From Veillonella seminalis (GTDB lineage Bacteria > Bacillota > Negativicutes > Veillonellales > Veillonellaceae): a DNA stretch of 64,000 nucleotides. Every line of letters begins with the position of its first letter. Position 1 is the stretch's first letter. The stretch is taken from positions 248,001 through 312,000 of the forward strand of contig NZ_RQUZ01000001.1 of assembly GCF_003992065.1 (NCBI RefSeq), written 5' to 3'. The position numbers and the translations under genes are program-made. Below, piece after piece: positions 22,760 to 27,292 of the stretch. Below the pieces are notes generated by a model. That model had not been told where the DNA came from. It ran no database searches and saw only the letters and a program-made list of their open reading frames with translations.

Positions 22760-22835
22760 TCCTCGATAGCTCAGTCGGTAGAGCAATCGGCTGTTAACCG
22801 ATCGGTCGTAGGTTCGAGTCCTACTCGGGGAGCCA
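22760..22835 (+). tRNA. tRNA-Asn (anticodon GTT)
   Basis: A 76-base cloverleaf. Acceptor TCCTCGA pairs with TCGGGGA, the anticodon loop reads CTGTTAA, the T-loop is TTCGAGT, and CCA is encoded. It is first in a three-tRNA cluster. Confidence 0.97.
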
Positions 22836-22839
22836 ATGT

Positions 22840-22914
22840 GGCCCGTTGGTCAAGCGGTTAAGACACCGCCCTTTCACGGCGGTATCGGGGGTTCGATTCC
22901 CCCACGGGTCACCA
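22840..22914 (+). tRNA. tRNA-Glu (anticodon TTC)
   Basis: A 75-base cloverleaf. Acceptor GGCCCGT pairs with ACGGGTC, the anticodon loop reads CTTTCAC, the T-loop is TTCGATT, and CCA is encoded. Only four bases separate it from tRNA-Asn. Confidence 0.97.
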
Positions 22915-22919
22915 CATAT

Positions 22920-22995
<76 letters not shown>

Positions 22996-23009
22996 GAAAC
23001 TTTAGAAAA

Positions 23010-23037
23010 AGCACTTGAGAAATCAAGTGCTTTTTTA
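23010..23037 (+). terminator. Terminator of tRNA cluster
   Basis: AGCACTTGA (23010-23018) and TCAAGTGCT (23023-23031) form a perfect stem with a GAAA loop, then a T-run. Confidence 0.92.
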
Positions 23038-23173
23038 TTTTATGGATTAATTTCTTACAAGGCTAATGCGTCCTAAAATTGAGATTACTTCGTAATCGGA
23101 ATGTTGAATTTCTTATTGCCGGAAGTATATTAATTTCACAAAATAATAATTAAAACTGATAAGAATTTACATT

Positions 23174-23205
23174 CAGCCCACTGCAGTTGCAGTGGGCTGT
23201 TTTTT
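23174..23205 (+). terminator. Orphan terminator before the truncated adhesin
   Basis: CAGCCCACTGCA pairs perfectly with TGCAGTGGGCTG (23174-23199), followed by T6. No gene lies between it and the tRNA terminator 137 bases upstream, so it ends an unseen small transcript or is left over from a deleted gene. The region from 23206 to about 23590 is AT-rich, with a repeated TATTTACCAG near 23284-23305, and shows no coding signal. Confidence 0.75.
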
Positions 23206-23496
23206 ATACAAAACCATTTATAAAAATTAATATCGATATGGGAGGTAAAACCTACTTGATAATTAATAAAATGAATATATCTGTATTTACCAGTATTTAC
23301 CAGTGTTTATCTATAAAAATCGATGCCAATTGATAATTATCGAAGTCTATCGAGAAGAATGATAATATGAATAATATTATTATAAGTTTTAAATTGAATC
23401 TTTATATCGAATATTTTCGAATGGCATGCTTAAGGTAGATTCATAAATATCTCATTAATTTTTTAACGGTCAAAGAGATGATAAATAGTTCGAAAA

Positions 23497-25413
23497 GTGT
23501 TTGGAAACGGTGTATTTTGTGAAGTAAATAAATCGTCTCAAATGGAATTATTTTGTTTTTTGATTAACAAAGTGTTCATATTCAAGAGCACGATTAATAT
23601 CGCCGGCGACGGTAATACAGTAACATCTGTTAAAGATGGTAAGATTGAAGTCGGCTTAAATAAAGATGTTAACCTTGGCCAAGATGGTTCCATTGCAGCA
23701 GGTAATACAACTATCGATAAAGATGGCGTTTCTACAGACAAGATTGCAATTAAAGATTCCGGCATTTCCATCGATAAAGATGGCATCAATGCAGGCAATA
23801 CACAAATCAAAGATGTAGCTAGTGGTCTTACCGGTGATGCATATGATACTTCTATTGCAGGTCAGGAAAACTACAACAACGGTGCCAACATTGGGGATGT
23901 GTACAATATTGCTAAGGCTCAATCCGGTAAGAATATTACGGTAGATGCTGATAACAAAGTCAACTTGAACGACAATATCACTCTTGGTGACGATAGTGAT
24001 GCATCTAAACAGGTTAACATTAAGGGCAATGGTGCAACTGTAACAGCCGGCAGTGGTGATAATCAAGTTAAGATGGATGGTTCCAAAGGTCAGATTTCTG
24101 TAGGCGGTGCTGTTCTTGGTAATCAGGAAAACACAGCAGGCGATAGCAATCCGGCAACAGGCAACTATCTCACCGGTTTAGACAATACTACTTGGGAGGG
24201 TGAAAACATCCGGTCCGGCCGTGCAGCAACTGAAGATCAGTTGAAGACTGTTAGCGATAAAGTCAATAAAGGCCGTGTATTCGAAGGCGATGACGGAGCT
24301 GATAATAGCGTTACTGTAGGTCTCGGCGATACCTTGAAACTCAACGGCGGTGCTAATGCTGCTAGATTATCTGATGGTAACATTGGCGTTGTAAGAAACA
24401 GCAACGGTGACGGTCTTGACATTAAACTTGCGGAAGACTTAACCGGTCTTGATAGTGTAACAACCGGTAATACGACTATGGATAGTAGTGGTATCACCAT
24501 TAAGACAGTGGATGACGATCGCAATATCACTATCCAGGATAGCAATATCAACATGGGTAACAACGTAGTAAGCGGGGTTGCTGACGGTACGGTAGCAGCC
24601 GGTTCTACGGAAGCTATTAACGGTAGCCAACTCGCTCAGCGTGACCAAGCTATCAACAACCTCGGTGGTGCGGTTAACAAATTAGATAATCGTATTAATC
24701 GTGTTGGTGCCGGTGCGGCAGCTTTGGCAGCTCTCCATCCACAGGACTTCGATCCGGATGATAAATGGGATTTCGCATTCGGTTATGGTCACTATAGCGG
24801 TGCGAATGTCGGTGTGCTTGGTGCCTTCTATAAACCAAATGAAGATACAACCTTCTCCGTTGGTGGTACAATCGGTGGCGGTGAAAACATGTTCAACGCC
24901 GGTGTATCCTTCAAGATTGGTCAAGGCAACAACGTATCTAATTCCCGCGTAGGTATGGCTAAGAAAATCAAACATCTCCGTGAAGACGTAGCTAAACTTG
25001 AAGAATTAGTAAATCGTCAGAGTCAAATGATTAATCAATTGACCGGCCAGAACCCTGGTACGATTGAGTCTAAAGGCAGTGAACTCTTCCCTGATGTTCC
25101 TTCAAATCACTGGGCTTACGAATATGTAAACAAACTTCATGACCTCGGCATCGTTGAAGGCTATCCTGATGGCAACTTCGACGGTAACCGTATGATGACA
25201 CGTTATGAATTCGCAGCAGTTGTATATCGTGCAATCATGGCAGGTGCAGCATCCAATGCAGCTCTCCAAGGTGATGATACATTAGATCGTTTGGCAAACA
25301 AATTCTCCGACGAACTCAAGTACATACGCGTAGACACTGTGAAGAAGGATAAAGACGGTAATCCGGTTATCCAACGTGTTCGTATCGTTCCTGAAAACAA
25401 GGATAAATACTAA
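23497..25413 (+). pseudogene. 5'-truncated trimeric autotransporter with C-terminal SLH domain
   Basis: The first about 30 codons look non-coding. There is no signal peptide and no good start (GTG 23497 or ATG 23536 lack ribosome sites). From about residue 35 the frame holds YadA/Hia-type stalk sequence rich in NITVDAD and DKDGI-like repeats. A trimeric anchor follows (VVSGVADGTVAAGSTEAING through FKIGQG, about residues 350-490). A coiled coil (about 500-525) and one SLH domain (ELFPDVPSNHWAYEYVNKL to VYRAI, about 530-585) come after the anchor. The SLH would sit in the periplasm and bind peptidoglycan. The head and export signal are missing, so this is a silent remnant or recombination cassette. 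It ends with a good terminator. Confidence 0.75.
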
Positions 25414-25684: not shown

Positions 25685-27292
25685 ATGTCTGCATTTATAC
25701 CGTATTTAGTAGTATTGGGCGTTATCGTCGTGTTTTTCGGAGTATGTTATTTAGTATTCCGTGATAGCGGTAAGTCTAAAGAAGCTGAGGCTTTGGCTAA
25801 TGAAAAGGTGAGCGATGGCGATTATTATGAACGTAAACGTCGTGATCACGGTGCCGCTTACTATCGCGAAGATGCTAAACAAAATAGAGACAACTATCGA
25901 TTCGGCGGTGGGCATCAAGTGACGGATACCAATCATCAAGAAACTTCCGATAAAGAGATGGCCAGCACGTTTGTGCCTTTATCCAATCGTCAAATGGAAT
26001 CCGATTTTAATCATGCGATGACGGGACCGGCAAGCAATCGTTTTGGCGGAGCTCCGGAAGAGGATTTGGACAGTCGTTTAGGTCAAGATATTGTATCTGA
26101 TTTGGATATGACGAAACCAATGCTTAAAATTCCGACGGAACCACCGGCTGAGCCGCTCACTGAAAGTGAATTGACACGTCGCATTCATCGTGTGACGCCG
26201 ACGGAAGCAACTGCCGCTGAAGCAGCTGATGATGCTACCCGCATTATCCCGGTAGTTCGTGACCATAGCAGTGCTGATACATTCGGTCGTGCAGGTCAGA
26301 GTGCAACTCATGCGGCTTATGGTGAGGCTGAAATGCCTGATTTAATTGCTCTTGGTACTTCGCATTTCATGAGCTCTTTTGGTGCGGTTAATGCAAGCAC
26401 TAAGGAACAAGTATTGGATATTACTAAAACAGCCTTAGATCGTTTGGGTATCACCGCCAGTGGTGAATTACACGCCCTTTTGGAAAATATCGTTGTGCAG
26501 GAAGCGCTCCTTTGCATGCAGAAGGCCTATGCAACAACGCCGACGGTTTGGATGAAAGAAACGGCGATTGAAGCGTTTATGGATGTGGTTCAGGAACCTA
26601 AATCCAGCGCACCGTACTTGGTCGCTTTTGACGCCCTTCGCATTTTACCGCATTTGCAGTTAGGCCATTTCCAAATTATGGCGTTGGCGTTGTTATTGCA
26701 GTATTCGCGCAATTCCAACAACTACAGCTTGGAACATTTACAGTATTATGTAGATAAATACATCGAACCGTTCTTGTCCGATTTGCCACGGGAAGAATCT
26801 ATGTATCGTCAATTGGATTACTTGCGTTGTTCCATTCAAGAACCGGAACGCAATACTTTCTGGGATATTATGGTTCATTCCTATCCGTTCGTGTTTGCCT
26901 ATGCCGGTTTTGATAAAGATGAATTGACACGTGCTTTACGCGGCCATGCCTTGGATGGTCGTTATATCGTGAAAAGTGTGAACTCGCCGTTGTTAAAATT
27001 GGCCGTTGTTGATGAAGGTTTGGCACCACGCTACTTCCATATGGCGCATTTGGATAATCCTGAAATTCAACAGCACATTTTGGCCTTGGCAACCGGTAAG
27101 CCGGTTGATTTTAATGCGACTGAACGTAAACAGGTGTTGGAATATATCTCGCCTGTATTGCCTAAAGTGGCTGATATGTATGATTCCATGCCGCTCAGCC
27201 ATTCCAGCTTAACCTTGTTAGGTTTATATTTGGGTCGTGCCCATGTTAAAGTAACCATCGGTGAAGAATTCGACTTATCTCCTTGGTTTTAA
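25685..27292 (+). CDS. Single-pass membrane protein, unknown
   Basis: A 535-residue protein with one N-terminal membrane helix (about residues 3-24) followed by an FRDSGKSKEAE charged segment. Next is a long low-complexity acidic/polar stretch (about 30-215), and then a helical domain (about 225-535) with repeated Leu-rich helices. It probably faces the cytoplasm. No family is recognised. The ATG at 25685 has a strong GGCAGGAGG site; the GTG 36 bases earlier is unlikely. Shares a bidirectional terminator with the converging regulator gene. Confidence 0.7.
   Translation: MSAFIPYLVVLGVIVVFFGVCYLVFRDSGKSKEAEALANEKVSDGDYYERKRRDHGAAYYREDAKQNRDNYRFGGGHQVTDTNHQETSDKEMASTFVPLSNRQMESDFNHAMTGPASNRFGGAPEEDLDSRLGQDIVSDLDMTKPMLKIPTEPPAEPLTESELTRRIHRVTPTEATAAEAADDATRIIPVVRDHSSADTFGRAGQSATHAAYGEAEMPDLIALGTSHFMSSFGAVNASTKEQVLDITKTALDRLGITASGELHALLENIVVQEALLCMQKAYATTPTVWMKETAIEAFMDVVQEPKSSAPYLVAFDALRILPHLQLGHFQIMALALLLQYSRNSNNYSLEHLQYYVDKYIEPFLSDLPREESMYRQLDYLRCSIQEPERNTFWDIMVHSYPFVFAYAGFDKDELTRALRGHALDGRYIVKSVNSPLLKLAVVDEGLAPRYFHMAHLDNPEIQQHILALATGKPVDFNATERKQVLEYISPVLPKVADMYDSMPLSHSSLTLLGLYLGRAHVKVTIGEEFDLSPWF

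Follow-up and report, generated by a model that had tools for sequence, protein, structure and literature searches.

A 5′-truncated gene for an SLH-tethered trimeric autotransporter beside a tRNA array in Veillonella seminalis is most likely a pseudogene

Introduction

What is an adhesin gene that has kept its membrane anchor and lost the parts that would carry it out of the cell? The question is raised by an open reading frame (ORF) at positions 23497–25413 of a 64,000-nucleotide stretch of Veillonella seminalis DNA, hereafter called the window. The first-pass annotation, made from the letters alone, described it as a headless trimeric autotransporter with a periplasmic SLH domain and suggested that it might be a silent donor for recombination into expressed adhesin genes.

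Related proteins have been described. In V. parvula, the parts of PMC5491611 that deal with these adhesins place an SLH domain beyond the YadA anchor in three proteins, suggest periplasmic contact with peptidoglycan, and give Vpar_0045 as an anchor only. PMC7549365, in its sections on the same family, reports an SLH domain or a coil past the anchor in all V. parvula trimeric autotransporters it covers, as well as split genes with a separate anchor/SLH piece and domain swaps. As to distribution, the earlier paper (2017) restricts the anchor-SLH arrangement to the Negativicutes, and the later one (2020) extends additional domains after the anchor, notably SLH, to other Negativicutes and additional domains to related diderm phyla (PMC5491611, PMC7549365; relevant sections).

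Here we analyze the architecture of the ORF, its surroundings, the same site in other Veillonella genomes, and its relatives within and outside its own genome. The results favor a 5′-truncated orthologue of an SLH-tethered adhesin.

Results

The ORF lies on the forward strand and, in the ORF list, encodes 638 amino acids from a GTG start codon. Pfam assigns a YadA_anchor domain (PF03895) to residues 419–472 (E 5e-05), with a score that passes the curated cut-off, and one SLH domain (PF00395) to residues 531–573 (E 6e-14), with weak matches of coiled-coil type between them; the order is anchor, coil, SLH. The anchor (24751–24912) resembles the solved anchors of YadA and Hia. It is followed by a predicted coiled coil (24949–25044), placed by alignment and by helix 124–155 of an AlphaFold model of low confidence (monomer, mean pLDDT 54), in which four predicted strands, themselves preceded by a helix, lead into this helix and then into SLH-like helices. 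The SLH domain (25087–25215) carries W-A-Y and TRYE motifs, and the C-terminal tail beyond it (25216–25413) resembles, in its first part, the segment that follows the SLH domain in OmpM, as judged by alignment and by sequence search of the structure database. PDB 9gh4, a solved structure named “cell surface protein” in which a further coil follows a YadA-type anchor, matches the anchor-coil part of the window at 24580–25410.

Similarity to relatives, in both DNA and protein, sets in abruptly at nucleotide 23590, which is codon 32, and we therefore take the coding remnant to be 23590–25413 and the leading 31 codons (23497–23589) to be a non-homologous chance extension, in which no signal peptide is encoded. 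Nor can a ribosome-binding site be seen ahead of the GTG. The passenger is reduced to a piece of stalk (23590–24640), with no Pfam match to YadA_head anywhere in the ORF. None of the nine ORFs of at least 20 amino acids that overlap 22996–23600 has, when read by eye, a type V signal peptide; a frameshifted upstream start with a signal peptide, which the first-pass annotation had named among the observations that would count against it, was thus not found. The ORF thus has the anchor of a type Vc (trimeric) autotransporter and, C-terminal to it, the SLH domain that marks the SLH-tethered autotransporters of the Negativicutes, but neither a signal peptide (in this class often with an ESPR) nor a passenger of head and stalk. 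The annotated architecture near tRNAs was accordingly confirmed, and the reported loss of signal peptide and head was borne out.

The remaining codons still show constraint. The remnant of about 605 codons shares 81–88% amino acid identity with five relatives at only 53–59% third-position identity, which suggests that constraint on the codons lasted until recently and that decay, if any, is young. All 605 codons are open, with no internal stop.

Upstream, an array of tRNA-Asn, tRNA-Glu, and tRNA-Val genes (22760–22995, forward strand; ARAGORN and Rfam), kept in all seven Veillonella genomes searched, ends about 500 bp before the ORF. It is closed by its own terminator (23005–23036, forward strand; a 14-pair stem with a T-run), and V. 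ratti ATCC 17746 and Veillonella sp. KGMB01456 match the window from 22990 to 23041, that is, over the tRNA end and this terminator. The place of the adhesin's 5′ part is then taken by an AT-rich stretch (23042–23589, 26.9% GC) for which our searches detected no homologue: 23060–23585 matches only its own genome among the seven and none of the six other Veillonella genomes, and the joining stretch of about 550 bp occurs in its own genome once, as itself, and is not part of another adhesin. Phage records gave no match to 23042–23589 and a 34-mer taken from it is absent from viral contigs, so a phage origin found no support. Within this stretch lies the orphan terminator noted in the first-pass annotation (23174–23199, forward strand; a 12-bp perfect stem with a T-run), which is real as a pattern and distinct from that of the tRNA array. 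It suits a deletion scar and a silent donor equally well. A search of 2.7 kb turned up only short inverted repeats, which resemble chance matches or terminators.

The same site was compared in other Veillonella genomes. KGMB01456 has a full-length orthologue (L098) of 2,888 amino acids with ESPR, YadA_head, YadA_stalk, YadA_anchor, and SLH domains. A homologue of the gene at 25685–27292 of the window (forward strand), whose position in relatives marks the conserved context, follows it 2.6 kb further on. Its linkage to the tRNAs is inferred from this downstream side, as the adhesin contig stops short of them and a separate contig carries them, next to an inserted element. That element (L087:4436–5973, its other junction on L088) sits in the 3′ end of the equivalent tRNA-Val gene and has ORFs that, on reading their sequences, we named serine-recombinase-like, repressor-like, and IS30-like; it has only the tRNA end and terminator in common with the window.

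In V. ratti, collinearity with the window extends over the 3′ part of the adhesin and every downstream gene examined, but the adhesin gene begins right at a repeat end that also occurs at the end of the tRNA-bearing contig. This repeat end is present in 13 copies in V. ratti, mostly near contig ends, and in 10 in KGMB01456, and we read it as a probable insertion sequence. The genome of the window has four copies, none of them at the adhesin locus, and a repeat of this type was rejected as the direct cause of the truncation seen there. Four further genomes, G001, G002 (V. intestinalis), G003, and G006 (Veillonella sp. R32), have an empty site, where the downstream gene follows the tRNAs without an adhesin after a gap of about 140 bp (about 270 bp in G003).

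The missing 5′ part was not found elsewhere in the assembly. Searched against the 26 contigs of the window's genome, the head of L098 gave only background, with 41% identity over part of the query in the best-scoring match, as did a longer, 645-residue head query, for which the best-scoring match had 34% identity there and 37% in V. ratti. Taken together, the full-length copy in KGMB01456, the two differing truncations, and the collinear context suggest that the ancestor of the V. ratti group probably carried the gene intact and that its head was lost on no fewer than two occasions, with the cuts at different points.

To place the remnant among the adhesins of its own genome, we searched with an anchor-SLH query, which matched 22 places, four with SLH only and 18 that include an anchor. 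A signal-like segment and the anchor share one frame in seven of the 18; three have the signal and a break toward the 3′ end, seven (the window ORF included) have no signal in frame, and one is cut by a contig end. These calls combine a hydrophobicity rule with reading by eye, 17 of the places coming from one survey and the window's frame from the ORF list; some of the breaks may be sequencing errors. Genes that are broken or lack an in-frame signal peptide include L195 (G000:C12), L200 and L201 (both G000:C10), and L196 (G000:C9). In a further anchor gene, L197 (G000:C8:14246-14710), the query match ends before any SLH domain, and the C-terminal tail, RIRVDRISGEDNDRNKIDRVRVN, resembles the tail that follows the SLH domain elsewhere. 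Across 77 related loci, a simple threshold found a signal-like segment in 40 and none in 18 (two of these, L134 and L149, look like near-misses), while 13 run off a contig edge and six contain N gaps.

The genome therefore holds the sister adhesins that the first-pass annotation had asked after, 17 anchor places besides the window ORF, of which only one (on contig C16, 60% amino acid identity) also has an SLH domain. Gene-conversion tracts, which it had also proposed to look for, were absent: elsewhere, the genome offers no DNA match better than 76% over 229 bp, and exact tracts that the remnant has in common with 13 stretches of its own genome reach no more than 26 bp, or 16 bp for the sole SLH-bearing sister.

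Among solved structures, the SLH part is most similar to 8bz2, 8bym, and 8bys (E 3e-22 with a profile and 3e-15 with the single sequence), which outrank Deinococcus radiodurans SlpA and Bacillus anthracis Sap. The three entries are named “S-layer homology domain-containing protein”, and we take them to be V. parvula OmpM. An alignment of 24 sequences, picked from the 77 loci plus the window, has W178, Y180, R208, Y209, and E210 invariant in 24 of 24, although W-A-Y belonged to a search seed and its conservation is partly selected, which is not so for TRYE; a simple pattern for RYE finds 57 of the 77 loci and misses 20. The invariant residues include both tyrosines, Y36 (of W-A-Y) and Y65 (of TRYE), that were proposed as possible contacts for polyaminated peptidoglycan (PMC10628300, section on the SLH domain). 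Like the OmpM proteins of Negativicutes (8bym, 8bys, 8bz2), the adhesin would have one SLH domain per chain in a trimer on a coiled coil, and it shares the TRYE motif and the tyrosine after W-A. It differs in that OmpM has an N-terminal SLH domain and a porin barrel in each chain, whereas the ORF has its SLH domain C-terminal to the YadA anchor.

Over anchor, coil, and SLH domain, the closest proteins come from another genus. Adhesins of Megasphaera massiliensis and related Megasphaera (L094–L096) have 90% identity to the remnant in the alignment and 91% in tblastn segments, compared to 83–84% and 81–82%, respectively, for V. ratti and KGMB01456; DnaK of the window's genome has 79% identity to that of a Megasphaera. 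The Megasphaera genes have other neighbors, and L095, the gap-free example, has kept a far longer stalk in a frame of 2,565 amino acids. At sites that discriminate between L095 and L098, the share at which the window follows L095 is 39/51 for the first module, 65/175 for the stalk, 17/44 for the anchor, 68/98 for coil and SLH, and 6/13 for the tail. The contrast is weaker with L094 and L097 as references (27/49, 90/167, 22/47, 60/87, and 5/13 in the same order). Fourfold sites are near saturation relative to Megasphaera (44% identical, against 40% in DnaK) and the third-position GC content of the remnant is the Veillonella value (37.9% versus 61.7%), which together give a recent transfer no support; an exchange with Megasphaera, likely from the protein identities, would therefore be old. 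The remnant gene thus appears to be an old mosaic with a 3′ module closest to Megasphaera.

Discussion

We consider it probable that ORF 23497–25413 is a 5′-truncated orthologue of an SLH-tethered trimeric autotransporter. It would represent about the last fifth of a once full-length type Vc adhesin. In the intact product, an extended signal peptide would have been followed by a YadA-type head, a long stalk, the trimeric barrel, and a periplasmic coiled coil, with a single SLH domain at the end of each chain. Presumably, the DNA from the tRNA array to the stalk was deleted or rearranged; the promoter would have gone with the signal peptide, the head, and most of the stalk, to be replaced by some 550 bp of AT-rich DNA unrelated to them. 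Because a product without a signal peptide should not be exportable, the remnant is most likely a recent pseudogene.

The 605 open codons would, however, also suit a gene in use or an assembly fault, and the joint itself rests on one draft assembly of 26 contigs from one strain. A true gene of full length, with a repeat-rich 5′ part dropped or misjoined in assembly, would agree with the draft state of the genome, with the full-length KGMB01456 orthologue, with the remark in PMC5491611 (section on scaffolds) that Negativicutes scaffolds often end in such genes, and with the absence of a signal-like segment, by the simple threshold, from 18 of the 58 loci free of contig edges and N gaps. Yet a 331-kb contig runs straight through the site, the orthologue's head is absent from every contig, and the joining DNA is a unique stretch rather than another adhesin, and we regard an artefact as unlikely. 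Continued production of the headless protein for a role within the cell, or its activation by a reversible rearrangement, could draw on the open frame and on a constraint similar to that of relatives, but is very improbable given the lack of a signal peptide and of a visible ribosome-binding site, the terminator upstream, the chance-like or terminator-like nature of the inverted repeats, and the failure to find a separate 5′ part.

The silent donor proposed in the first-pass annotation, a cassette that would pass its headless 3′ part by recombination to adhesin genes that are expressed, is not supported either, and we hold it to be very unlikely. Anchor-bearing sisters do exist, the remnant gene is itself a mosaic, and domain swaps through homologous recombination have been proposed for Veillonella (PMC7549365, section on domain swaps); but sisters as divergent as those found here offer little substrate for homologous exchange, and no past conversion is visible. 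A search of titles on adhesin gene conversion and Veillonella autotransporter pseudogenes returned nothing on this locus. More speculatively, and with little confidence, anchor, coil, and SLH might form an exchangeable tethering unit derived from an OmpM-like SLH segment that moved between Megasphaera and Veillonella, in which case beheaded copies could be reservoirs whose 3′ ends are exchanged with DNA arriving from other strains and not with the cell's own genes.

As a truncated member of its family, the window ORF is not alone. V. parvula VtaG, VtaH, and VtaI (Vpar_0041, Vpar_0100, and Vpar_1664) likewise carry a C-terminal SLH domain beyond their YadA anchor, with predicted periplasmic contact to peptidoglycan (PMC5491611, PMC7549365; descriptions of these proteins), whereas the window gene has no signal peptide or head and lies beside a tRNA array; the relative in V. 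parvula SKV38 (L129) has 55% identity in its best segment. Headless 3′ fragments are also represented by FNLLGLLA_00037, the anchor/SLH piece of the split Vpar_0041, and by Vpar_0045, which is almost only an anchor (same sources), but in the split gene of SKV38 the 5′ part adjoins, while for the window ORF the assembly contains no such part. Both the anchor-SLH architecture and the view of it as a peptidoglycan tether are thus already in print, and the window ORF adds one more member, in a decayed state, to a known kind.

The idea that the SLH domain follows the barrel, lies in the periplasm, and probably links an outer-membrane adhesin to peptidoglycan is supported by this published work. Its stated restriction to diderm Firmicutes held in part: our anchor-SLH scan gave Negativicutes throughout, except for one contig of a metagenome-assembled genome (MAG) labelled Phoenicibacter, and of the two papers cited above one is narrower and the other adds extra domains in related diderm phyla. 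The exception (L131, labelled Phoenicibacter congonensis) comes from an actinobacterial MAG, in which a contig of 8.5 kb encodes an anchor-SLH protein resembling those of Negativicutes; contamination is the likeliest explanation. Four IMG/VR contigs (L191–L194) carry anchor-type adhesin relatives of 46–64% identity and are probably host DNA beside prophages.

In intact relatives, three SLH domains gathered by the coil would probably hold peptidoglycan in the manner of the OmpM SLH trimer, with the order of parts reversed, that is, barrel-coil-SLH instead of SLH-coil-barrel. What is added here is that the SLH domain resembles that of OmpM and carries both tyrosines proposed for polyamine binding, which provides a concrete, testable link, down to the residues of the proposed contact, between the SLH tail of the adhesin and the OmpM tether. 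The locus also illustrates clearly how readily SLH-tethered adhesins disappear, since of three related Veillonella one has the gene intact and two have it beheaded in different ways, and four others have no adhesin at the site.
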